From Actinomycetota bacterium (GTDB lineage Bacteria > Actinomycetota > Acidimicrobiia > IMCC26256 > VFJJ01), in NCBI GenBank assembly GCA_009886115.1, contig VFJJ01000027.1, positions 1-42,333 on the forward strand: a stretch of DNA of 42,333 nucleotides, in the 5' to 3' direction. Both the position numbers and the translations under genes were made by a program. The notes beneath the pieces were generated by a model. That model ran no database searches and was not told where the DNA came from. It was given only the letters and a program-made list of their open reading frames with translations. Positions 22,122-35,739 of this stretch are shown in pieces. Numbering within the stretch: position 1 is the stretch's first letter; each line of letters starts with the position of its first letter.

Positions 22122-22167
22122 CAGCAGCTCAGCAGTGCAGCAGCTCAGCAGTGCAGCAACTCAGCAG
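22122..22167. repeat. 16-bp tandem repeat at the CAP gene stop
   Basis: About three units of 16 bases (cagcagctcagcagtg), the last one imperfect, begin at the stop codon of the CAP protein gene and run downstream. The rest of the 132-base gap between the TetR stop and this gene shows nothing recognisable. Confidence 0.85.
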
Positions 22168-23537
22168 GCCGGACCGGTGCTGTCGTTGCGAACCACGGGC
22201 TGCAGCGGCGGGGTGCCGGCGGCGTAGCCGGGCGCCGGTGAGCTCGCGACCCGGCCGAAGTTCTCGGTGGCGTAGATCTTGCCGTTGATGCACGTGACCG
22301 CGACACCGACGGTGTCGAAACCGGGTTGGAGGATGTTCACCCGGTGACTGCTCGAGTTCATCAGCATGCTGTGGATGCGGCCCGACGACATGGCCCCGCC
22401 GCTGGCCCAGGCGATGTTCTCGCCCAGACCTTCGAATCGCCCGCTGATGCCGGTGACGGTCATCGCCGCGCTGAGATCGCGGTGCACGAAGCTGCCGGTC
22501 GAGGCCATCGTGCGTGACCAATCGGCCGCCAGCGCGCCCAGGCTGTGGTCCCAGACCAGGGGGCTCAGGCCCCGTGCCGCTCGCTCCTCGTTGATGCGAG
22601 CGACGATGTCGGCTGCGATCTGGCTCTCGATCGAGACCGGCGCCGGTGCTGCGCCCGGGGACGGAACGGGCGTCGGGATCGGTGCCGCGCTCGGGATCGG
22701 GGTCGATCCCCCGAACGCCCGGGCCGTTCCGTCGGCGACGGCCACGACGTACCCGTTGCTCGTCGGCTGGCGCATGATGCCGACGACTGGAGCGCCGACG
22801 GCCGCCGAGCCGAGGTTGGCCGCGTCACCGTACGCGAGCACCGCTCCGCCCTGCGACACGAGCCAGTACCCACGCCCCGAGACCGAGGAGGCCATGCCCA
22901 CGATCGTGTCGGCTCGGGGCTGGCCGCCACCGGAGCCGAGGAACTTGGCGTCACCGAAGCTGAAGATCCCACCATCGTCGGCGGTGAGCCAGTACCCGTT
23001 CCCCGATGCCGTCGCGGTCATCGCGGTGATGGGCTGCACGAGCTTCAAATTGCCGGCGCTGCCGAGGAACTTGGCGTCACCGAAGCTGAAGATCCCACCA
23101 TCGGACGCCACCAACCAATAGCCCCGACTCGCCGGGGTGGCGGCCATTCCGACGATCGGCTGGTTGAGACGCATACCGCCCGTCGAACCGAGGAACTTGG
23201 CGTCACCGAAGCTGAAGATCCCACCATCGGACGCCACCAGCCAATAGCCCCGACCCGTCGACGTGGCCGAGATCCCGACGATCGGGAAGTTGAGCCTCGA
23301 GCCCGACATGGAGCCCAGCGCCGTCGCGTCGCCAACGGGGGCGACGGCACCGTCGGAGGAGGCCAGCCAGAAGCCGGTGCCGCTCGGCGTGGGGGCCATG
23401 CCGACGACGCTGACGGGCGCAGCGCTGGCTGAGCCGGCCAGGACACCAGTGGTGCTGACGACGAACGCCGTGGCGCCGACGGCAAGCGCTGCTGAGGCCA
23501 GAATCGCGCGCAGCGCCCAAGGGCGGGATCGGGACAT
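22161..23537 (-). CDS. Secreted CAP (SCP/PR1) domain protein with 42-residue repeats
   Basis: 458 residues. A signal-type N-terminus (basic MSRSRPWALR, hydrophobic stretch, ASAAP) is followed by five or six copies of a roughly 42-residue motif of the form GYWLVASDGGIFSFGDAKFL (about residues 45-275). A Pro-rich hinge (PIPTPVPSPGAAPAP) leads to a C-terminal CAP domain: IVARINEERAARGLSPLVW, FVHRDLSAAM, GLGENIAWAS and MNSSSHRVNILQ, with the CAP histidines and Glu in place. The repeats probably form a beta-propeller-like or wall-binding region. Extracellular role in the envelope is likely, activity unknown. ATG 23537 is chosen because the signal peptide starts there. Confidence 0.88.
   Translation of the reverse strand: MSRSRPWALRAILASAALAVGATAFVVSTTGVLAGSASAAPVSVVGMAPTPSGTGFWLASSDGAVAPVGDATALGSMSGSRLNFPIVGISATSTGRGYWLVASDGGIFSFGDAKFLGSTGGMRLNQPIVGMAATPASRGYWLVASDGGIFSFGDAKFLGSAGNLKLVQPITAMTATASGNGYWLTADDGGIFSFGDAKFLGSGGGQPRADTIVGMASSVSGRGYWLVSQGGAVLAYGDAANLGSAAVGAPVVGIMRQPTSNGYVVAVADGTARAFGGSTPIPSAAPIPTPVPSPGAAPAPVSIESQIAADIVARINEERAARGLSPLVWDHSLGALAADWSRTMASTGSFVHRDLSAAMTVTGISGRFEGLGENIAWASGGAMSSGRIHSMLMNSSSHRVNILQPGFDTVGVAVTCINGKIYATENFGRVASSPAPGYAAGTPPLQPVVRNDSTGPAC
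22936..23229. repeat. 126-bp periodic coding repeat with identical 42-bp cores
   Basis: Identical 42-base blocks lie at 22936-22977, 23062-23103 and 23188-23229, exactly 126 bases apart. They encode the DGGIFSFGDAKFLGS part of the protein repeat. Bases between blocks have diverged, except that the two right-hand copies stay almost identical for some 25 bases beyond the core. Confidence 0.93.
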
Positions 23538-23569
23538 GGCCAGAGCAGACCACGAGCCGGGGTATGGCA

Positions 23570-23598
23570 ACGTTAATTCCACGGTGGGTTTCCGTGAA
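23570..23598 (-). promoter_or_regulatory. Candidate promoter for the CAP protein gene
   Basis: On the minus strand TTCACG (23598-23593), a 17-base spacer and TAACGT (23575-23570) match the sigma-70-type pattern at four of six -35 positions and the TANNNT -10. Transcription would begin about 26 bases upstream of ATG 23537. Confidence 0.42.
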
Positions 23599-24713: not shown

Positions 24714-26660
24714 ATGAACGAGCAGCCCGAGTTCACCCTGGGGATCCGGGGCTACGCCGCGCCCGTCGAGATCGGGCGGGGCGGCTTCGGGGTCGTCTAC
24801 CGGGCTCAGCAGGTCGAGCTGCACCGCGAGGTCGCCATCAAGGTGCTGAGGGGAACGGCGCTCGACGATCGCTCGCGGCTCCGGTTCGATCGGGAGCGCA
24901 CGGTGATGGGCTCGCTGTCGAGCCATCCGTCGATCGTCACGATCTTCGACTCCGGCTTCACCGAGCTCGGATCGCCGTTCCTGGCCATGGAGCTCATGGA
25001 CGGGGGTTCGCTCGCCGACCGGCTCGACGGCGAGGGGCCGCTCGAGTGGCAGGAGGTCGCCGAGGTCGGGATCCGCATCGCCGGGGCCCTCGAGGCTGCG
25101 CACCGGGTCGGTGTGTTGCACCGCGATGTGAAGCCCGACAACGTTCTCATGTCGTCGTACGGCGAGGTGAAGCTCACCGACTTCGGCATCGCGTCGATGA
25201 TCGAGGGGACGGTGACCGCCACCGGCAACATCACCGCTTCGGTGGTCCATGCGGCCCCCGAGGTGCTCGAGGGTCGGCCGGCGTCGGTGGCGTCCGACAT
25301 CTACTCCCTGGGCTCCTCGCTGTTCTCGCTCCTGGTGGGGCAGCCGGCCTTTCTCCGCCCCACCGACGAAGGCGTGGTTCAGCTCATCACGCGCATCCTC
25401 ACCAAGCCCGTCCCCGACATGCGCCCGGGGGGAGTTCCGGGCGCCGTCGCAGACGTCATCGAGCAGGCGATGGCCAAGGAGCCCAGCCGGCGGTACACCT
25501 CGGCCGAGGCGTTCGGACGAGCCTTGGCCGATGCCGGAGCGGGGGCCGGGGCCGCGGTCTCGGCCAGCCTGATGGCCATTCGCGATGGGTCACCACGACG
25601 GTCCCGGGCCGAGGCGACGGCCTTGGGTCTGAGAGACGAGCCAACGCCCGACACCGTGCTCACGCCATCGTCGACGCCGCCCACGTTCACTCCGCCCTCG
25701 CTCACGCCCGGGTCGTCGGGCGTCACGCCGTCGCCATCGCCCTCGTTCACGCCACCCTCGTTCACGCCGCCCGGGCTGTCGGGCATCACTCCATCGCCAT
25801 CGCCATCGCCATCGCCATCGCCATCGCCATCGCCGAAGCGGCGGCGTCGGGTCCTGGTCGGCGCAGCGGCAGCCGTGGTGATCATCGGTCTCACGGGGAT
25901 CGCGCTCGCCCTCTCGGGTGGAGGTGACGAAGTCGTCGTCACGGGCGAGACCGACCCAACCGGTGCGGCGCAGGCCGATGGTTCCACCACGACGCCCACC
26001 CAGCCGGCCGCCTCGTCCCCCGACGTCTCGGGCTCGACGACGTCGACCTCGAGCGCGGCGTCGCCCACCAGGTCCGGCGGATCAGCCACCCGCGGCACCA
26101 CGATCGAGACCGACACGGCCGGCATCGCCGGGCTTCCCACGACGACGCCCGTCCCGACACCCACGACCGCACCACGAACGACGACCACCGCCACCACAGC
26201 GCCGGTCACCACAGCACCGGCGACCACCACGACCCTGCCCGCCGAGGTGGGCATCCCCGCGGTGACCGGCCAGGATCTCGCCAGCGCGACCCGGACCCTG
26301 AACCAGGCTGGCCTGTCCAACGTGACCAGCACCGTCGACTGCTTCGGCTCGCCCGACCGGGGCAAGGTCTTCAGCCAGGACCCCGCCCCGGGCTTCGTGG
26401 TCGCCCGCGAGTCGGTGGTGCACCTCAAGGTCGAGGACTCGTCCTGCGCCTTCGTTCCCAGCGTCGTGGGCTCCGACCTCGACACCGCGCTCGCAACACT
26501 CGGGTCGGCGAACTTCGCCTATCAATGGAGCTCGGCGTGTCTCGGCGGCCCGGTCCCCAACGCCGTCGTGAGCCAGACTCCGGCGGGCGGAGCCGACGTC
26601 AAGGCATCGACCGTCGTGGTGCTGCGCATCCAGGCCGACGGCTGTCAGAGCGCTCCGTAG
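24714..26660 (+). CDS. PknB-like Ser/Thr protein kinase with two PASTA domains
   Basis: 648-residue receptor-type kinase. Cytoplasmic kinase domain about 14-275: Gly loop EIGRGGFGVVY, K43 (VAIKVL), HRD loop (VLHRDVKPDNVL), DFG (LTDFGIAS) and APE (HAAPEVLEG). A Pro/Ser/Thr juxtamembrane region with a seven-fold SP run precedes the helix (VLVGAAAAVVIIGLTGIALAL, about 380-400). Outside come a Thr-rich stalk and two PASTA-like modules (IPAVTGQDLASATRTLNQAG, about 514-577; VPSVVGSDLDTALATLGSAN, about 580-645), which bind peptidoglycan fragments in this family. GGAG precedes ATG 24714. Its 3' end overlaps the convergent esterase gene by 16 bases. Confidence 0.93.
   Translation: MNEQPEFTLGIRGYAAPVEIGRGGFGVVYRAQQVELHREVAIKVLRGTALDDRSRLRFDRERTVMGSLSSHPSIVTIFDSGFTELGSPFLAMELMDGGSLADRLDGEGPLEWQEVAEVGIRIAGALEAAHRVGVLHRDVKPDNVLMSSYGEVKLTDFGIASMIEGTVTATGNITASVVHAAPEVLEGRPASVASDIYSLGSSLFSLLVGQPAFLRPTDEGVVQLITRILTKPVPDMRPGGVPGAVADVIEQAMAKEPSRRYTSAEAFGRALADAGAGAGAAVSASLMAIRDGSPRRSRAEATALGLRDEPTPDTVLTPSSTPPTFTPPSLTPGSSGVTPSPSPSFTPPSFTPPGLSGITPSPSPSPSPSPSPSPKRRRRVLVGAAAAVVIIGLTGIALALSGGGDEVVVTGETDPTGAAQADGSTTTPTQPAASSPDVSGSTTSTSSAASPTRSGGSATRGTTIETDTAGIAGLPTTTPVPTPTTAPRTTTTATTAPVTTAPATTTTLPAEVGIPAVTGQDLASATRTLNQAGLSNVTSTVDCFGSPDRGKVFSQDPAPGFVVARESVVHLKVEDSSCAFVPSVVGSDLDTALATLGSANFAYQWSSACLGGPVPNAVVSQTPAGGADVKASTVVVLRIQADGCQSAP
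25791..25832. repeat. Hexanucleotide microsatellite (ccatcg)7
   Basis: Seven uninterrupted copies of ccatcg encode a Ser-Pro run in the juxtamembrane segment of the kinase. It is prone to slippage, and changes of one unit keep the frame. Confidence 0.95.
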
Positions 26661-27853
26661 AGCGCGTCGAAGATCGTCCGCCAGCGAGGATCGTTGCGGG
26701 TCGAACCCTGCCAGTGCTGGCTCATCACGTAGCCGAACCCGATTCCGGCGTCGGGATCGGCGACGCCGAGCGAGCCGCCGGCCCCGTTGTGACCGTAGGT
26801 TCGCATCCCCGGCCCGAAGCGCCACTCGGGCTGGGTGATCTCGAAACCCAGCCCGAAACGGGTGCGCAGGCTCATCACGAGGTCGAATCCGTCCACATGG
26901 ATCCGGGACGCCTCGTCGACCAGTTCCGCGCCGAGGATCCGGGTACCGTCCAGCTCGCCGCCGTTGGCCATGGCCGCGTAGAGCCGGGCCAGTGAACGGG
27001 CGTTGGTCATGGCGTTCGACATGGGGATCTCGGCCGCCCGGTACTGCCGGGAGTTGCAATGGTCGAAGTCGATGGCATCGGGCGGGTTGGCGAAGCTCAT
27101 GGCGCCCAACCGGTGCGTGGCGAAGTGCGCCGAGAACGTGAGCTCGCCCGGGCCCAGTGCCGGCGCCGGAAGAGTGTCGGCGATTCGGGCATCGAGCTCG
27201 GGGCCGGCGCCGATGTGGACGTCGAGACCGAGCGCCGGGTTGAGGTCGGAGCGGAGGAACTGCCCGAGCGTCGTGCCCGAGGCCCGGCGGAACACCTCGC
27301 CGACGAGATGGCCGTAGGTGACACCGTGGTAGCCGTGGCCCGTGCCCGGCTCCCACATCGGAGCCTGAGCGGCGAGGGCCTCGACCATGGCGTTCCAGTC
27401 GGACAGGTCGCCGTGGTTCATGCGCTTGGTGATCGCCGACACCCCCGACTGGTGCGTGAGGAGCCAGCGCACGGGGATCTCGCCCTTTCCCGACTGCGCG
27501 AACTCGGGCCAATAGCGCGCCACCGGAGCGTCGAGATCGACGAGGCCCCGCTCCACCAACATGAGGAGCTCGATCGCCACCACGCCCTTTGTCGACGAGA
27601 ACACACAGGTGAGCGTGTCGCGCTCCCACGGCCGGCTGCGGGCGCGGTCGGCCCAGCCGCCCCAGACGTCGACCACCGGACGCCCGCCGGCGTACACGCA
27701 CAACGCTGCGCCGCGCTCGAAGGCCGGGTACCCGCCCGAGCCCACGGTGAAGTTCTCGACGAACGCGTCGCGAACCGCAGAGAAGGCCGGATCGACGGTT
27801 CCCGCGAACGGGATGCTCGCTCCGTCGGGTCCGCTGATGGTGGAGGCGCTCAT
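26645..27853 (-). CDS. Serine hydrolase, class C beta-lactamase/EstB family
   Basis: 402 residues. SxxK nucleophile motif S86-STK (CVFSSTKGVVAIELL), a YxN-like Tyr region (HGYHGVTYGHLVGEVF) and the C-terminal TYGHNGAGGSLGVADP, which replaces the KTG of beta-lactamases as in EstB-type esterases. No signal peptide, so a cytoplasmic esterase or lactonase is more likely than an antibiotic-resistance enzyme. Its ATG overlaps the E2 stop by 4 bp (ATGA), making it the fourth cistron of the dehydrogenase operon and suggesting it works on an ester, lactone or thioester of that pathway. Substrate unknown. Confidence 0.9.
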   Translation of the reverse strand: MSASTISGPDGASIPFAGTVDPAFSAVRDAFVENFTVGSGGYPAFERGAALCVYAGGRPVVDVWGGWADRARSRPWERDTLTCVFSSTKGVVAIELLMLVERGLVDLDAPVARYWPEFAQSGKGEIPVRWLLTHQSGVSAITKRMNHGDLSDWNAMVEALAAQAPMWEPGTGHGYHGVTYGHLVGEVFRRASGTTLGQFLRSDLNPALGLDVHIGAGPELDARIADTLPAPALGPGELTFSAHFATHRLGAMSFANPPDAIDFDHCNSRQYRAAEIPMSNAMTNARSLARLYAAMANGGELDGTRILGAELVDEASRIHVDGFDLVMSLRTRFGLGFEITQPEWRFGPGMRTYGHNGAGGSLGVADPDAGIGFGYVMSQHWQGSTRNDPRWRTIFDALYGAL

Positions 27854-29214
27854 GGGGTGCTCCCTTTTCCCGGCTCGGGCTGGCGTTCGTACGGATCGAG
27901 CTCCAGACGGCGTTTGATGGCCCCCGTGAGCGCGGCAGCAGCGGCGCCGTCGAGCACACGGTGGTCGTAGGCGATCGACAACGTCATCTCGGGCCGCACG
28001 GCCGGGCGACCGTCGACGGCGACGACCCGATCGGCCAGCGCACCGACGAACACCAGCATGGCCTCGCCGTCGTTGAGGACCGGGGTGCCAGCCCGGATGC
28101 CCCAGGCACCCAGGTTCGAGACGGTCGCGCTGGCCAGGCCGGTGTCGTCGGGACCGAGCCGCCCGGTGCGGCCCAGCTCGACGAGACGCCGGCGCTGCGT
28201 CGTGATCTCCTGCACCGACAAGCGATCGGCATCACGAACCACACCGACGACGAGCCCCCGCTCGGTGTCGATGGCGATGCCGATGCGCACGTCGGCGAAA
28301 CGCAGGAGATGGCCGTCGTCGTAGCGGGCGTTGGCGTCGGGCTGATCGGCCAGGGCCCGAGCAGCGGCCGCGACGACCGCGTCGGTCACCGTGGGTGCGC
28401 TGGGGTCGCCCTGAGCCGTGACCGAGGCTCGAGCCGCCAGCCGGCTGCCGTCGATGTCGACCATCTGCACGAAATGCGGCACGGTGGTCCACGAGCGGGT
28501 GAGGCGCTTCACCGCCGTGCGGCGCAACGGTGACAGCGGGAGGCGGTCGCGTACGAGACGGCCGCCGGCCACGTCCGCCACGCCGGCTGGCGCCGCCTCG
28601 CCGGCCACGTCGGGCACGGGCACGTCGGCCAGGGGCACGTCGCGTTCGACGACCAGCCCGTCGGGGCCCGATCCCACGAGGGTGGCGGGGTCGATGCCCC
28701 GCTCGCGGGCGAGCAGCCGAGCCCGGGGCGAGATCAGACCCCGAGCGCCGCTGGGAACGGCAGGCCCGCCAGCAGCGTCGCCGAAACGGTGAGCCGCGTC
28801 AGACCCGGCGACAGGCCCTTCAGAGTAGCCAGCACCTTCGGTGCGGCCCGCGGCACTCGAGCCCTCGGAGCCCTCAGAACCACCCGCGGCACCGGAGCCG
28901 CCCAGACCGTCAGAACCCCCAGCGCCACCAGAGCCGTCGAGGACGACGCACAGCAGGGTACCGATCGCCAACTCGTCGCCGGGTCGGGCCTGATGCGGGC
29001 CGAGCACCCCGTCTGCCGGCGCCTCCACGGGGATCTCGGTCTTGTCGGTCTCGACCACGGCGATCACGTCGCCTCGACGCACGAGCTCGCCCGCCTCGAT
29101 CGCCCATGAGAGCAGCACCGCCGTCTCGGCCGACTGGCCCAGGCTCGGCACCCGCACCTCCATCGACGACCGGCCCGGCCCGGGCGCCGGGTCGTGGCGG
29201 TCGGAGGCGCTCAT
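27850..29214 (-). CDS. Dihydrolipoamide acyltransferase (E2) of an oxoacid/acetoin-type dehydrogenase complex
   Basis: 454 residues. One N-terminal lipoyl domain (about 18-95) with lipoyl Lys K58 in VVETDKTEIPVEAP; an unusual Gly/Ser/Glu-rich linker (about 95-145) instead of the usual Ala/Pro linker; a peripheral-subunit-binding domain (SPRARLLARERGIDPATLVG); and the catalytic core (PLSPLRRTAVKRLTRSWTTV, ATVSNLGAWG, SIAYDHRVLDGAAAAALT) with the DHRxxDG active site. The core moves the acyl group from lipoamide to CoA. Its ATG overlaps the E1beta stop by 4 bp. No E3 (dihydrolipoamide dehydrogenase) is encoded here, so it must be shared. Confidence 0.93.
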   Translation of the reverse strand: MSASDRHDPAPGPGRSSMEVRVPSLGQSAETAVLLSWAIEAGELVRRGDVIAVVETDKTEIPVEAPADGVLGPHQARPGDELAIGTLLCVVLDGSGGAGGSDGLGGSGAAGGSEGSEGSSAAGRTEGAGYSEGPVAGSDAAHRFGDAAGGPAVPSGARGLISPRARLLARERGIDPATLVGSGPDGLVVERDVPLADVPVPDVAGEAAPAGVADVAGGRLVRDRLPLSPLRRTAVKRLTRSWTTVPHFVQMVDIDGSRLAARASVTAQGDPSAPTVTDAVVAAAARALADQPDANARYDDGHLLRFADVRIGIAIDTERGLVVGVVRDADRLSVQEITTQRRRLVELGRTGRLGPDDTGLASATVSNLGAWGIRAGTPVLNDGEAMLVFVGALADRVVAVDGRPAVRPEMTLSIAYDHRVLDGAAAAALTGAIKRRLELDPYERQPEPGKGSTP

Positions 29215-30200
29215 CGGCACATCTCGACGACCGTGGCGACGATGTCGTCGACGCTCGGGACCAACGAGTCGACGAGGTGCTCGGCCGTGGGAACGGGGAT
29301 GTCGGGGATGGCCAGGCGCCGCAGTGGACGATCGAGCCATCCGAAGGCGTGCTCCATCAGCAACGCCCCGATCTCGGCTCCGACGCCGAGCGTGCGCGGA
29401 CCCTCCTCGACCACCAGGCAGGCCCCGGTCTTCTTCACCGAGCGCAACAGGGTCTCGAGGTCGAACGGGTTGAGCGTGACCGGGTCGACGATCTCGACCT
29501 CGATCCCTTGTGCGGCAAGGATCTCCGCGGCGGCGAGCGATCGACGCAGCATGTCCTGCCAGGCGACGATCGTGAGACGGTCGCCGGGCCTGCGCACGAC
29601 GGCCTGCCCGAATGGCGTGACGTGCTCGCCCTCGGGGACGGGGCCGCTGGTGCCGTAGAGACGTTTGTGCTCGAAGACGAACACCGGGTCGTCGCTGCGG
29701 ATGGCCGCGGTCACGAGCCCCTTGGCGTCGGCGGGGGTCGACGGGACCACGACGCGCACCCCGGGCGTGTGCATCAGATAGGCCTCGGTGCACTGCGAGT
29801 GCTCGGGGCCGAACCCGCCTCCGCCCGAGGCCATGCGCACCACGAGCGGCAGGTCGACCTGGCCGTCGTGGGCGTAGCGCCAGGTCGCGCAGTTGAGGAA
29901 CACCTCCTGGCCGGCGCTGAACACGAAGTCGCAGTACTGCAGCTCGGCGATGGGTCGAAGTCCCCGCATGGCCATCCCGATCGCCATGCCCACCACGAGG
30001 TTCTCGCTGATCGGGGTGTCGAAGAGCTGGTCGCCGATGAACTCGCCCATCCCCCGCGACACGCCCCACACGCCGCCCATCGGGCCGACATCCTCGCCGA
30101 ACATCACCACGTTGGGATCGCGCTTCATCTCGCCCACGATCGCCTCGCGGATCGCGTGTGCGTACTTGACGATTCGCGTCTCTTCCGGCGCCTCGGTCAT
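29211..30200 (-). CDS. 2-oxoacid/acetoin-type dehydrogenase E1 component, beta subunit
   Basis: 329 residues; partner of the alpha subunit in a thiamine-diphosphate heterotetramer. Markers are ALAIREA-like YAHAIREAIVGEMKRDPN, VVMFGEDVGPMGGVWGVSRG, FDTPISENLVVGMAIGMAM (with the catalytic Glu of ISE), CDFVFSAGQEVFLNC and RMASGGGGFGPEHSQC. The C-terminal transketolase domain ends in PVPTAEHLVDSLVPS. Compared with pyruvate and acetoin dehydrogenases it could be either; substrate assignment needs biochemistry. Four-base overlaps bind it to both neighbouring cistrons. Confidence 0.94.
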   Translation of the reverse strand: MTEAPEETRIVKYAHAIREAIVGEMKRDPNVVMFGEDVGPMGGVWGVSRGMGEFIGDQLFDTPISENLVVGMAIGMAMRGLRPIAELQYCDFVFSAGQEVFLNCATWRYAHDGQVDLPLVVRMASGGGGFGPEHSQCTEAYLMHTPGVRVVVPSTPADAKGLVTAAIRSDDPVFVFEHKRLYGTSGPVPEGEHVTPFGQAVVRRPGDRLTIVAWQDMLRRSLAAAEILAAQGIEVEIVDPVTLNPFDLETLLRSVKKTGACLVVEEGPRTLGVGAEIGALLMEHAFGWLDRPLRRLAIPDIPVPTAEHLVDSLVPSVDDIVATVVEMCR

Positions 30201-31174
30201 GGCACGAACACCGACTCGCGAGCCGTGTCGGCGCTGACCACCGGTCTCGATCTCATCGTGGCGACGGCGGCTTCGATGCGCTCGTCGAAGCCCCGTTCGA
30301 GCTCCTCACGCAGCACCGGGTCGATCTGGTCGAGGGGATCGACCAACGCCGTGTCGCTCGGGCCGGCGCCCGGGCCCGGGCCTGATGCGCCCCGACGGTA
30401 CGACTCCCGATCTCCGAGCCAGTGACCCCGGAGCCGGGTGACCTTGACCTCGATGAGCGACGGACCATCGCCAGCCCGGGCCCGAGCGGCGGCCACGGCC
30501 ACCGTGTCGAAGACCGCATCGATATCGCTGCCGTCGACCACGATCCCGGGCATCCCGTAACCCGCGGCCCGGTCGGCGATGTCGACGACCGACGTCGACA
30601 CCGACGCCGGCACCGACATCCCCCACCCGTTGTTCTCGCACAGCAGGATCAGCGGCAGACGGGCGACCGCCGCGTAGTTCGCCGCCTCGTGGAACTGCCC
30701 GCGGTTGGCCGAGCCGTCACCGAAGAACACGATGCACACCCGGCCCGTGCCCAGCCGCTGCTCGGCGTAGGCGACACCGGCCCCGATCACGAAGTTGCCC
30801 CCGAGCGAGCCGCTCTCGCCCAGGATCCCCCGCGCCGCGTCGATGACGTGCATGACCCCGCCCTTGCCCCGGTTCGTACCACCCTCGCGGTACGCCATGT
30901 CGCACAGGATGGTCTCGAGCGGCAGGTCGCGAGCGATCCAGTAGGCGGTGCCCCGGTGGCCGTAGAGCATCGGGTCGTCGGGACGCAGCGCAGCGAGCAC
31001 GGCGCACTGGGCCAGCTCCTGGCCCGCGCCGAGGTGGAGATTGGCCGGGATCTCGCCGGTGAGGCAGAGCTGCGCCACCCGGTCCTCGAAGCGGCGAGCG
31101 AGGAGCGCGGTCGTGAAGATCCGACGCCGCGTCAATTCGTCCACGATCCCCCGATCGATCCTTGTCGGTGACAC
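30197..31174 (-). CDS. 2-oxoacid/acetoin-type dehydrogenase E1 component, alpha subunit
   Basis: 325 residues. The thiamine-diphosphate motif GDGSANRGQFHEAANYAAV with its closing ENNGWGMSVPAS is intact, as are HRGTAYWIARDLP, GKGGVMHVIDAARG and the phosphorylation-loop-like region (RLRGHWLGDRESYRRG). With the beta subunit it decarboxylates a 2-oxoacid or cleaves an acetoin-like ketol and loads the acyl group onto E2. The start is GTG 31174, first cistron of the leftward operon; a TAGATT at 31213-31208 (minus) may be its -10 box. The SDR gene diverges 89 bases away. Confidence 0.94.
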   Translation of the reverse strand: MSPTRIDRGIVDELTRRRIFTTALLARRFEDRVAQLCLTGEIPANLHLGAGQELAQCAVLAALRPDDPMLYGHRGTAYWIARDLPLETILCDMAYREGGTNRGKGGVMHVIDAARGILGESGSLGGNFVIGAGVAYAEQRLGTGRVCIVFFGDGSANRGQFHEAANYAAVARLPLILLCENNGWGMSVPASVSTSVVDIADRAAGYGMPGIVVDGSDIDAVFDTVAVAAARARAGDGPSLIEVKVTRLRGHWLGDRESYRRGASGPGPGAGPSDTALVDPLDQIDPVLREELERGFDERIEAAVATMRSRPVVSADTARESVFVP

Positions 31175-31263: not shown

Positions 31264-32067
31264 ATGAACGCAAGCACCAAGCGACTCGACGGGCGGGTGG
31301 CCATCATCACCGGAGCGGCCCAGGGGCAAGGCGCCGCCGAGGCGGAGGCCTTCGTCGCCGAGGGCGCCAGGGTCCTGCTCACCGACGTGCTCGACGACGA
31401 GGGGACGGCTCTGGCCGATCGGCTCGGCCCGGCCGCGGCGTACCGACATCTCGACGTGACCGACGAGAGCCAGTGGGCCGAGGCCGTCGACGATGCCGTG
31501 GGCCGCTTCGGAGCGCTGCACGTCCTGGTCAACAACGCCGGGATCTCCTTGCGCCCCGCACCCATCGCCGAGACCCCGGTGGCGCGCTATCGCAGGGTGA
31601 TCGAGACCAACCTCGTGTCGATGTTCACGGGCATCCACTACGCAGCGCCCCATCTGAGCGCCGCGGGGAACGGGTCGATCGTGAACGTGTCGTCCGTGAA
31701 CGGCTTCGCCGGCGCCGCGGGGATCGCCGGGTACGTGTCGAGCAAGTTCGGGGTGCGCGGCCTCACTCGTACCGCCGCCCTCGAGCTCGGACGATCGGGC
31801 GTGCGTGTCAACTCGATCCACCCCGGCCCCATCGACACGCCGATGGTGCAGCCGGCGGCCTGGGGCGGCTTCGACATGCGCCCGATCCTCGCCGCCCGCA
31901 TGCCCTTGGGCCGGATCGGCCAACCGGCCGAGGTCGCCGAGCTCGTCGTGTGGTTGGCGTCGGACGCGAGCAGTTACTGCACCGGCGCCGAGTTCGTGAT
32001 CGATGGCGGATATCTCGCCGGCCCGTTCGACCCGGTGGGGCCCCTCGAGCGGGAGGCCGGGGTGTGA
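31264..32067 (+). CDS. Short-chain dehydrogenase/reductase (SDR)
   Basis: 267 residues, classical SDR using NAD(P). Cofactor motif TGAAQGQGAAEAEAF (GxxxGxG), D-containing LLTDVLDDEG after beta-2 (which favours NAD over NADP), structural NNAG (VLVNNAGISL), catalytic Ser in IVNVSSVNGF and the YxxxK pair (YVSSKFG), then HPGPIDTPM. An alcohol would be oxidised to a ketone in a catabolic setting. ATG 31264 is chosen because SDR homology begins within ten residues of it; the frame is open 34 codons further up. First cistron of the rightward operon, overlapping the next gene as GTGA. Confidence 0.93.
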   Translation: MNASTKRLDGRVAIITGAAQGQGAAEAEAFVAEGARVLLTDVLDDEGTALADRLGPAAAYRHLDVTDESQWAEAVDDAVGRFGALHVLVNNAGISLRPAPIAETPVARYRRVIETNLVSMFTGIHYAAPHLSAAGNGSIVNVSSVNGFAGAAGIAGYVSSKFGVRGLTRTAALELGRSGVRVNSIHPGPIDTPMVQPAAWGGFDMRPILAARMPLGRIGQPAEVAELVVWLASDASSYCTGAEFVIDGGYLAGPFDPVGPLEREAGV

Positions 32068-33311
32068 CCTCTCGGTCGAAAGCCGGGCCGTCGCCGTCGT
32101 CGACGAGAGCCACCGCGATCGTCGGCGACCGCCTCGTCGACGCCGACAACCACTACTACGAGCCCCGCGACGCCTTCACCCGGCACATGCCCCGCGCCCT
32201 GTTGCCCCTTGCCGTTCACGTCGAAGGCGAGGGCGACGACGAGAAGATCTTCGTGGGAGCCGAGCGTTTCGTGTTCCTCCGCAACCAGTACGACGCCGTC
32301 GTGAGGCCGGGCGCCCTGCGGGAGATGCTGCGCAGCATGAAGGCCAGCGGTGAGCGGGGCGATGCCAGCGAGGTCGACGAGCCCATGCAGCCCGCGTACG
32401 TCGACCCCGTGGCCCGTCTGGAAGCCATGGACCGACAGGGCGTCGAGGCCGCGTTGCTGTTCCCGACGCTCGGCGTGTGCGTCGAGCAGGCCATGGCCGG
32501 AGATCCCGTCCAGATCCACGCCAATTTCGACGCCTTCAACCGATGGCTCGACGACGACTGGGGATACGCCCACGCCGGACGGATCTTCGCTGCGCCGATC
32601 ATCCCGCTCGCCGACCGCGATCGCGCCTGCTCCGAGCTCGACCGGGTGCTCGAGCGCGGGGCGCGCGTCATCGCGCTCCGGCCCGGGCCGGCTTACGGAC
32701 GCTCGCCCGCCGATCCGTGGTTCGATCCGTTCTGGGCCCGGATCAACGAGGCCGGCGTGCTCGTGGGCCTGCACATCGGCGAGAGCGGCTACAACGAGAT
32801 GTTCTCGACGTGCTGGGGTGAGAGCCCGAACCCGCCGTCACACCGGCAGAGCGCGTTCCAGTGGTCGTGCTCGTACGGCGACCGTCCCATCATGGACACC
32901 ATCGCCTCGCTCGTGCTGCACAACCTCTTCGGCCGCTTCCCCAACGTGCGTTTGGCTTCGGTCGAGAACGGATCGCTGTGGGTGCCCTATCTCCTGGCCC
33001 AGCTCGACAAGATGAAAGGCATGGGCCGCAACGGCCCGTGGCCCGGCGGGTACGTCTCGGGCCGACCCAGCGAGATCCTCGGACGCCATCTGTTCGTGTC
33101 GCCGTACCACGAGGAGGACATCCCGGCACTGGCCCGTCTGATCGGACCGTCGCAGGTGCTCTTCGGCTCCGACTGGCCCCATCCCGAAGGGCTGGCCGAA
33201 CCGGCTGACTTCATCGAAGGGCTCGCCGGGCTGTCCGACGGCGACGTTCGCCTCATCATGCGCGACAACACCTCGAGCCTGTTGGGCCTGGGCCCGGGCG
33301 CACCGCGGTGA
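32064..33311 (+). CDS. Amidohydrolase family 2 metal-dependent hydrolase/decarboxylase
   Basis: 415 residues with the ACMSD-like TIM barrel. The first metal motif is DADNHYYEPRDAF, with a Tyr where many relatives have the second His of HxH, a form I recall from actinobacterial Amidohydro_2 proteins. The rest is conserved: LLFPTLGVCVE, APIIPLADRDRAC, VLVGLHIGESGYNE, RLASVENGSLWVPYLL and the final LFGSDWPHPEGLAEPADF with the metal Asp. Such enzymes hydrolyse C-N or C-C bonds or decarboxylate; the reaction here is unknown. GTG 32064 overlaps the SDR stop, and the crotonase starts in its own stop codon (GTGA), so all three are translationally coupled. Confidence 0.9.
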   Translation: MTSRSKAGPSPSSTRATAIVGDRLVDADNHYYEPRDAFTRHMPRALLPLAVHVEGEGDDEKIFVGAERFVFLRNQYDAVVRPGALREMLRSMKASGERGDASEVDEPMQPAYVDPVARLEAMDRQGVEAALLFPTLGVCVEQAMAGDPVQIHANFDAFNRWLDDDWGYAHAGRIFAAPIIPLADRDRACSELDRVLERGARVIALRPGPAYGRSPADPWFDPFWARINEAGVLVGLHIGESGYNEMFSTCWGESPNPPSHRQSAFQWSCSYGDRPIMDTIASLVLHNLFGRFPNVRLASVENGSLWVPYLLAQLDKMKGMGRNGPWPGGYVSGRPSEILGRHLFVSPYHEEDIPALARLIGPSQVLFGSDWPHPEGLAEPADFIEGLAGLSDGDVRLIMRDNTSSLLGLGPGAPR

Positions 33312-34087
33312 AACCCCGCTTCGACCGGTACTCCCAGTCGTACGACCACGTCGCCATGACCCGCGACGAGCACGGCATCATCGAGCTCCGATTCCACAGC
33401 GACGGGGGCCCGCTCGTGTGGGGCGCAGCTCCGCACACCGAGCTCGGGTACTGCTTCGCCGACGTCGGTGCCGATCCCGAGAACCGCGTGGTCGTCCTCA
33501 CGGGCACGGGTGACCGGTTCATCTCGGCGATCGACGACAGCTGGGTTGGCGCCATGACCCCCGCCAAGTGGGACACGATCTACGCCCACGGCAAGCGCCT
33601 GCTCGGCCGCCTGCTCGACATCGAGGTACCCGTCATCGCCGCGATCAACGGTCCGGCGACGGTCCATGCCGAGATCGCCGTCCTCTCCGACATCGTCATC
33701 GCCGCCGAGCACACCTGGTTCTCCGACGCTCCGCACTTCCGGTTCGGCACCGTGCCCGGCGACGGCGTGCACGTCGTGTGGCCGATGTTGCTCGGGGCCA
33801 ACCGGGGCCGGTACTTCCTCCTCACCGGCCAACGGATCTCGGCAGCCGAGGCCCTGGCGCTGGGCGTCGTCAGCGAGGTCGTGCCGGCGGCGGAGCTGCT
33901 CGGTCGAGCCCACGAGCTCGCCCAGGTGCTGGCCCGCCAACCCGACACCACGCTGCGCTACACGCGCGATGCGCTCACCCAGCCCATCAAGCGGCTCCTC
34001 CTCGACAACGTGGGCCATGGCCTGGCCCTGGAGGGCCTGGGCGCGTACGCGTCGTGGCCGACGGGCGACGCGCCGGCTCCGGCCTGA
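33308..34087 (+). CDS. 6-oxocamphor hydrolase-like beta-diketone hydrolase (crotonase superfamily)
   Basis: 259 residues. It belongs to the crotonases but resembles 6-oxocamphor hydrolase (OCH) of camphor-degrading Rhodococcus far more than CoA-dependent hydratases: FDRYSQSYDHV, ENRVVVLTGTGDRF, IEVPVIAAINGPATVHAEI, VPGDGVHVVWP and ANRGRYFLLTGQ. From my memory of OCH, its active-site residues H45, H122, H145, D154 and E244 correspond here to H43, H120, H143, D152 and E242, a constant shift of two. OCH performs a retro-Claisen C-C cleavage of a cyclic 1,3-diketone to a keto acid, without CoA. Third cistron after the SDR and amidohydrolase, GTG start within the previous stop. Exact substrate unknown. 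Confidence 0.88.
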   Translation: MKPRFDRYSQSYDHVAMTRDEHGIIELRFHSDGGPLVWGAAPHTELGYCFADVGADPENRVVVLTGTGDRFISAIDDSWVGAMTPAKWDTIYAHGKRLLGRLLDIEVPVIAAINGPATVHAEIAVLSDIVIAAEHTWFSDAPHFRFGTVPGDGVHVVWPMLLGANRGRYFLLTGQRISAAEALALGVVSEVVPAAELLGRAHELAQVLARQPDTTLRYTRDALTQPIKRLLLDNVGHGLALEGLGAYASWPTGDAPAPA

Positions 34088-34207: not shown

Positions 34208-34648
34208 ATGATGCGCAGAACCCGCCGTCTCGTCACGACGTTGGCCGGGGCCCTGTCGATCATCGCCACCGGCTGTGGCTCAGAGGACGACACCTCGGCC
34301 GATGGCGATCGAGCATCTGCCGAACCGGTCGTCGTTTCCGGATCAGGAGACATCGCTGATGTGGTCGAGCAGTACCGCCAGGTGCTGGGTACCGACAACG
34401 GCGGCGAGCCCGGTGGCGCCGCCTCTGGTCGTCGAGAGATCAACTGGGACGGGGTACCCGTGAGAGGCTTCGGCGCCGTCTACACCGATGTCGACACCGA
34501 GCACACGGCCTTCGAGTACTTCGCAGCCGACGGAACCTCCCGTTCGGTCGGAGGGCGTCTCTCGTGGGTGTACCGTCACGCTGTGATCTCTTCTTGCCCC
34601 GGCTTCGGCCGCGTCGACCTCCAGGGGTGCTCGGTCGTGCCTTCGTGA
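34208..34648 (+). pseudogene. Lipoprotein with internal deletion and lost C-terminus
   Basis: 146 residues. A lipoprotein signal peptide ends in IATGCGSED (lipobox Cys). The stretch SGRREINWDGVP is the signature of a widespread secreted family that normally continues with a long beta-rich domain (containing a FFNxNSPRG-like part) before reaching RGFGAVYTDVD and TAFEYFAADG. Here GVP is joined directly to VRGFGAVYTD, so perhaps 80-100 residues are missing, and after FAADG the expected C-terminal part gives way to unrelated sequence (RSVGGRLSWVYRHAV). ATG 34208 has AAGGAG upstream. Probably a decaying gene. Its stop overlaps the desaturase GTG start. Confidence 0.6.
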
Positions 34649-35739
34649 CCATCACCGATGTCATCCCGAACCTGACCCGGGCGATGATGCCTTCCGAGAA
34701 CGAGATCCGGCGGGCCCGCCGACGGCTCCACGCCAAGGCGCTCACCATCGTGGCGTTGTTCTTCGCGAGCTACTGGGGCCTGGTGATCGCCGACAACCGC
34801 ACGCTCGTGCGGTTCGGTTGTGCCATCACGTTGATCGTGGCCGTGGTCGCCGTCGCCACCGGGATCATGCACGACGCGAACCATGGAGCGTTCAGCAGCT
34901 CCCGCCGGGTCAACAAGATCGTCGGGTACACGCTCGACGTGCTCGGCGGCAGCTCATGGCTGTGGCGCTTCAAGCACAACACGCTGCACCACGGCAACAC
35001 GAACGTCGTCGGCGTCGACAGCGACATCGACCAGGGTCCCGTCGCCCGGCTCGCCCCGCAACAGCAGTGGCGCCCCTGGCACCGATACCAACACGTGTAC
35101 CTGTGGTTCATCTACGGCCTGCTGGCCATCCGCTGGTTCCTGATGGCCGACTTCGTGAACCTCCTCACCAATCGCATCGGCGCCCAGCCCCTGGCTGTGA
35201 ACCGCCGACGCCGCGACGTGGTGTTCCTGATCTGCGGCAAGCTCGTCCACCTCACCTGGGCCGTCATCGTCCCGCTCATGTTCAACCCCTGGTGGGGGGT
35301 CCTGGCGTTCTACCTGGTGTCGTCGTGGATCGTCGGGTTCCTCCTGGCCACGATCTTCCAGATGGCGCACTGTGTCGATGCCGCCGAGTTCGTCGACGAG
35401 GGCACGGCCTGCAAGGGCAAGCAGTTCCAGATGCACCAGATCAACACCACCGTCGACATCAACTTCCGGTTCATTCCCTTGCGCTGGCTGATGCGCTGGT
35501 TGGTCGGTGGCCTCGACCACCAGGTGGTCCACCATCTCGTGCCCAAGCTCCCGCACACCCTCTACCCCAAGATGCGCAAGCGTCTCGAGGCCGCGTGCCT
35601 GACCCACGGCATCACCCTCCGAACCCACGTGAGCATGCTCGACGCCCTGCGCTCCCACGGTCGGTGGCTCAAGCTCATGGGTCAGCAACCGAGCGTCATC
35701 GTCACGGTCCCGCCGATCGATGTCATCGGGCGTCCCTGA
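34645..35739 (+). CDS. Membrane fatty acid desaturase (acyl-CoA/acyl-lipid type)
   Basis: 364 residues from GTG 34645, or 351 from ATG 34684, where the conserved part (ENEIRRARRRLHAKALT) begins. Three histidine boxes bind the diiron centre: HDANHG (IMHDANHGAF), HNTLHHG (FKHNTLHHGNTN) and HQVVHH (GLDHQVVHHLVPKLPH). About four membrane helices separate them. There is no fused cytochrome b5. The third box (Q or H before xxHH) is like front-end/linoleoyl-type desaturases, which insert a double bond into lipid-bound or CoA-bound chains. The P450 gene follows after 49 bases on the same strand. Regiospecificity is unknown. Confidence 0.92.
   Translation: MTITDVIPNLTRAMMPSENEIRRARRRLHAKALTIVALFFASYWGLVIADNRTLVRFGCAITLIVAVVAVATGIMHDANHGAFSSSRRVNKIVGYTLDVLGGSSWLWRFKHNTLHHGNTNVVGVDSDIDQGPVARLAPQQQWRPWHRYQHVYLWFIYGLLAIRWFLMADFVNLLTNRIGAQPLAVNRRRRDVVFLICGKLVHLTWAVIVPLMFNPWWGVLAFYLVSSWIVGFLLATIFQMAHCVDAAEFVDEGTACKGKQFQMHQINTTVDINFRFIPLRWLMRWLVGGLDHQVVHHLVPKLPHTLYPKMRKRLEAACLTHGITLRTHVSMLDALRSHGRWLKLMGQQPSVIVTVPPIDVIGRP

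Follow-up and report, generated by a model that had tools for sequence, protein, structure and literature searches.

A predicted CoA-independent C-C hydrolase of the 6-oxocamphor hydrolase/beta-diketone hydrolase clade and its gene neighbourhood in an actinobacterial contig

The window (the whole 42,333-nucleotide stretch of DNA analyzed) carries at 33308-34087, on the forward strand, an open frame of 259 codons with a GTG start, whose product belongs to the crotonase superfamily (PF00378, E 2.2e-31). Its GC3 is 0.92, and its composition by codon position is like that of other genes in the window; the opposite strand is likewise open, but the antisense frame is without any support. Directly upstream on the same strand lie an SDR alcohol dehydrogenase (31264-32067, 267 aa; PF13561/PF00106) and, in front of the crotonase gene, an amidohydrolase-2 family protein (32064-33311, 415 aa; PF04909), with overlaps of 4 bases at both junctions. 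The best PDB matches of the SDR are Rv2002 and 3alpha,20beta-hydroxysteroid dehydrogenase, and that of the amidohydrolase is 4dzi (E 2.6e-82), followed by PtmU3 and DitZ. The SDR likely oxidizes a ring alcohol to a ketone, and the amidohydrolase may act on a ring-cleavage product as a thioesterase, hydrolase or decarboxylase. Downstream, again on the forward strand, are a small ORF (34208-34648), a fatty-acid-desaturase-family membrane protein (34684-35739; PF00487, E 1.1e-32; the ATG is at 34684, in a frame open from 34564) and a cytochrome P450 (35789-37072, 427 aa; PF00067; best PDB match 6gmf, then CYP125-type). The P450 gene, separated from the crotonase gene by the desaturase and a total of 1.7 kb, encodes a protein that may hydroxylate the ring in this same pathway.

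Divergent from the SDR gene, across a gap of 89 bases, four reverse-strand genes follow in overlapping order (26645-31174): the E1 alpha subunit of a TPP-dependent 2-oxoacid/acetoin dehydrogenase (30197-31174; NCBIfam TIGR03182, below the curated cut-off), E1 beta (29211-30200; PRK09212, also below the curated cut-off), a dihydrolipoyl acyltransferase E2 with lipoyl, E3-binding and catalytic domains (27850-29214; PF00364, PF02817, PF00198) and, last in the operon, a beta-lactamase/LipL-type serine esterase (26645-27853; PF00144, E 7.3e-65; NCBIfam LipL, below cut-off). We did not see an E3 gene among them, and E1 alpha used as a query against plasmids gave generic matches only. A preliminary description of this DNA had the hydrolase coupled to an SDR and an amidohydrolase rather than to known camphor genes; it was right about the coupling, but missed both the P450 and this divergent operon. 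Elsewhere in the window, a reverse-strand ORF (22161-23582) has repeated units of 22 protein letters, then a stretch resembling a CAP/SCP domain, and is possibly a secreted protein. An Rfam search of the window found no RNA features.

Using phmmer, the best PDB matches of the crotonase were 6-oxocamphor hydrolase (OCH; 1o8u, E 1.8e-75) and the Anabaena beta-diketone hydrolase (ABDH; 2j5g, E 5e-75), while the next-best crotonase after the OCH and ABDH entries was 3qk8 (E 4.3e-23). Over aligned columns, the protein is 51.7% identical to OCH and 48.3% to ABDH, which are 48.5% identical to each other, so that OCH is closer to the window protein than to ABDH. The alignment to 1o8u spans residues 4-246 of 259 with only one gap, of a single residue near residue 21, giving the protein the crotonase fold by homology over nearly its full length, in line with the near full-length match to OCH proposed earlier. 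The likeness does not reflect chance, since a 77% identical relative (L011, from an Acidimicrobiales MAG) and about two dozen relatives at 41-53% exist. An AlphaFold model based on three sequences came out poor, with a pLDDT of 55.7, and lends no structural support.

In the printed alignment, His43, His120, His143, Asp152 and Glu242 fall on His45, His122, His145, Asp154 and Glu244 of OCH, in register and at the offset of minus two that the preliminary description had given. Position 122 of OCH is located independently by 1szo, the fourth PDB match, whose printed alignment shows an Ala there. An alignment in which the five residues fail to coincide, one of the two results that were to count against the proposal, was thus not obtained. 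We tabulated the sites in a 51-row alignment of 28 OCH-clade and 23 CoA-type crotonase rows. All 28 OCH-clade rows have His143, Asp152 and Glu242, whereas His43 is not invariant and is present in 26 of them. His43, His143 and Asp152 occur together in seven CoA-type crotonases too, among them 3rrv and others from the window's own genome; six of the seven also have the equivalent of Glu242, the other (EchA15) being a fragment that ends before the site. His120, in contrast, is found in all OCH-clade rows and in none of the CoA-type rows, which have Gly (22) or Ala (1) there; Glu122 is present in 28/28 OCH-clade rows. The loop itself reads NGPATVHAEIAVLSD in the window protein versus NGxAxGxGxxLAL in the CoA type: the Gly-x-Gly is gone, the loop is one residue shorter, and His120-x-Glu122 stands instead. 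Thus the five residues that had been taken as the mark of OCH are all there, but four are shared with CoA-type crotonases and only His120 is diagnostic. The real signature of the OCH clade consists of His120, Glu122 and the shortened, Gly-poor loop, all of which the window protein has.

The window protein does not show the hallmarks of enoyl-CoA hydratases/isomerases (a Glu pair and a Gly-rich oxyanion loop; E144/E164 and G141 in the rat enzyme), and its His143 occupies the position of a Glu in PaaF and 5zai. Crotonases of the EchA15/3q1t/3rrv type share with it the superfamily fold, His43, His143, Asp152 and, where covered, Glu242; however, they are 26-31% identical to it, have Gly for His120, keep the Gly-rich loop and fall outside the OCH clade. 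One of them, the M. avium protein 3q1t, was reclassified by SALSA as a beta-diketone hydrolase (PMC3584854), with these shared positions among the residues used. These residues are common to many CoA-type crotonases, which suggests that they are not sufficient for such a reassignment. The EchA15-type proteins related to 3q1t lack an equivalent of His120.

A maximum likelihood tree of the same 51 rows, under a mixture model, set the 23 CoA-type crotonases apart from the other 28, among which are OCH, ABDH and the window protein, by a 100/100 branch; the rows did not include BadI and EchA20, two CoA-dependent ring hydrolases. Placement inside the CoA-dependent enoyl-CoA hydratases, the result that was to count against an OCH-like enzyme, did not occur. 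With alignment, diagnostic residues and tree bearing out the assignment to an OCH-like crotonase of the CoA-independent type, we predict, with a probability of about 0.85, that the product of 33308-34087 is an OCH/ABDH-clade retro-Claisenase that works without CoA. The protein is a new, previously unremarked member of a known family, that of OCH and its relatives. One could suspect instead a CoA-dependent crotonase merely resembling OCH, either an enoyl-CoA hydratase/isomerase or a CoA-ester ring hydrolase like BadI or EchA20, since databases label the relatives "enoyl-CoA hydratase/isomerase family", four of the five active-site residues are common to CoA-type crotonases, and CoA-type genes lie close to several homologues. 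We consider this quite improbable in view of the 100/100 split from every CoA-type row in a set without BadI and EchA20, the replacement of the CoA-type GxG loop by the shorter one with His120-x-Glu122, and the NCBIfam search, in which none of the crotonase models listed reached its own cut-off (best 130 bits, 292 needed). As every listed model fell below its cut-off, we also dropped any NCBIfam family name for the protein.

Within the OCH clade, the window protein is sister to L011 (support 100/97); the two then join a homologue from genome G733 (99/87) and next a protein from a plasmid of Paraburkholderia sprentiae (97/79, not starred). OCH itself, from Rhodococcus sp. NCIMB 9784 (1o8u/1szo), forms a pair with a protein from a Rhodococcus plasmid (100/99), and the window protein falls outside this pair, in another subclade. 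It is therefore a member of the clade, yet not a 6-oxocamphor hydrolase in the narrow sense. Besides the five active-site residues, the window protein and OCH share the His-x-Glu loop and a Trp (Trp38, Trp40 in OCH), but the window gene has an amidohydrolase and an E1/E2 complex as neighbours. ABDH (alr4455, 2j5g/2j5s) has the same five residues and belongs to the same clade; the Trp that the window protein has in common with OCH is a Phe in ABDH and most members of its subclade, and this subclade too is separate from that of the window protein.

Genes of the OCH clade were found, at E 1e-50, in six of about 400 genomes of the class and seven of about 400 of the phylum, the window's genome included, and the plasmid collection has many homologues at about 50% identity, which with few exceptions are annotated "enoyl-CoA hydratase/isomerase family protein". 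The family is widely spread and uncommon in any one group. The remark that few such hydrolases are known thus holds for characterized enzymes; in genomes they are common, under the name of enoyl-CoA hydratase. The same genome has a second OCH-clade gene (G000:C23:11193-11909; L002, L040), 50% identical, with Val in place of His43; it falls together with plasmid-borne, cyclase-associated homologues of Pseudonocardia and Paraburkholderia. In two loci, L026 (8162-9750) and L027 (2046-3643), an OCH-clade gene directly follows a "cyclase family" gene, so that members of two unrelated families of C-C hydrolases are adjacent; the cyclase family includes the Mn-dependent dihydrophloroglucinol cyclohydrolase (PMC10470551).

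The neighbourhoods of these homologues vary. L011 has CaiB, SDR, thiolase and ABC-transporter genes nearby; we did not find there the window's P450, its E1/E2 or close counterparts of its SDR and amidohydrolase (the amidohydrolases there are only 26-27% identical), so even a relative at 77% identity does not share the pathway context. The Rhodococcus plasmid homologue, 65% identical to OCH, has a P450, a ferredoxin and SDRs nearby, and the Paraburkholderia sprentiae homologue stands in a row between P450 and GMC oxidoreductase genes on one side and a serine esterase gene on the other. The latter belongs to an island of plasmid pl1WSM5005 (540-589 kb) that has the OCH-clade gene, P450, serine esterase and SDRs within 49 kb, together with an amidohydrolase 40% identical and E1/E2 33-43% identical to those of the window. 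In this island, however, the GMC oxidoreductase replaces the coupled SDR, gene order differs, and the amidohydrolase and E1/E2 are 21 kb and 13 kb away, respectively. In other OCH-bearing genomes, we found no relatives of the window's amidohydrolase beside the OCH homologues, and thus rejected the idea that the two genes travel together.

For the P450, we examined 11 OCH-bearing genomes, which gave 125 non-self matches at E 1e-50, only three of them less than 5 kb from an OCH homologue. The best match (G733:C1:90198-91442, 48%) is 3.1 kb from the OCH homologue of that genome, and the second best (G144:C15:138687-139919, 39%) 0.1 kb from another. The chance of both top places adjoining OCH homologues is about 4e-4, a value somewhat overstating the case, as the test was devised after the first neighbour had been seen. 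The OCH-clade homologue next to the closest P450 (G733:C1:86354-87133; L021/L045) has Asp in place of His43, and one TAA inside its matched span, probably at the end. The P450 subfamily is not dedicated to OCH: although its closest copy adjoins an OCH homologue, it is also found in many genomes of the wider class and phylum samples without a detected one. The Rhodococcus plasmid and Paraburkholderia sprentiae loci described above, each with a P450, support the linkage independently. Since the best P450 relatives adjoin OCH homologues, the logic of the camphor type (P450, dehydrogenase, retro-Claisenase) is probably present, with another substrate.

By analogy with OCH, the hydrolase would most likely bind a cyclic or bicyclic 1,3-diketone. 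The His143-Asp152 pair would activate a water for attack on one carbonyl, and the ring C-C bond would be cut to give an enolate, whose protonation would yield a keto acid; His43, His120 and Glu242 presumably position the substrate or help to protonate the enolate, as we assume from the general picture of OCH. In the pathway, the P450 would hydroxylate an alicyclic skeleton, the SDR would oxidize the resulting alcohol to the second ketone, and the hydrolase would then open the ring, an order to which we give roughly even odds; the amidohydrolase, the esterase and the E1/E2 complex may process later intermediates.

The SDR relatives and the CYP125-type second match of the P450 point, weakly, to steroid- or terpenoid-like rings, and the substrate is probably a terpenoid- or steroid-like alicycle, not demonstrably camphor. 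A bolder reading of the whole neighbourhood, to which we would attach rather less than even odds, is a new, non-camphor retro-Claisen route that opens a ring of a polycyclic terpenoid- or steroid-like compound, combining P450, SDR, CoA-independent C-C hydrolysis, amidohydrolase and 2-oxoacid dehydrogenase, in outline common to Paraburkholderia sprentiae. Another possibility, also at rather less than even odds, is a pathway with the SDR and amidohydrolase as its core, the P450 unrelated, and the OCH-clade enzyme acting on an ordinary small cyclic diketone or an aromatic-derived 1,3-dione. The P450 is indeed set apart from the hydrolase gene by the small ORF, the desaturase and 1.7 kb, some homologues adjoin cyclase-family and molybdenum-hydroxylase genes with no P450, and the nearest relative, L011, lacks the window's P450. 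Against this, the best P450 relatives in OCH-bearing genomes adjoin OCH homologues, and all genes from SDR to P450 are on one strand, with no terminator-like site found on the forward strand between them, although this last is a weak argument in GC-rich DNA. The P450 and the alcohol dehydrogenase thus share the strand of the hydrolase, in a P450 linkage that recurs elsewhere, yet is absent beside L011.

Degradation of camphor itself is a pathway of Rhodococcus sp. NCIMB 9784, and the kinds of genes in the window (P450, dehydrogenase, hydrolase) match that case. Given that the window protein lies outside the OCH subclade proper, and that the neighbouring P450 is closest to 6gmf and the CYP125 type, none of the 60 matches listed being named as a camphor P450, we judge camphor a very unlikely substrate here. 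The camphor route of Pseudomonas is described in PMC4097962.

Our search of the open-access literature on OCH found little. To our knowledge, very few retro-Claisenases of the crotonase superfamily that act without CoA have been characterized, and such enzymes are wanted as enantioselective catalysts. Members of the OCH clade occur in many different bacteria, and everywhere they carry the annotation enoyl-CoA hydratase. Because His120-x-Glu122 and the shortened loop cleanly separate the two kinds in the tested set, they offer a simple rule for finding more members and correcting their annotation. The P450 and SDR linked to the hydrolase point to a way in which the diketone may be made, and thereby to substrates to try.
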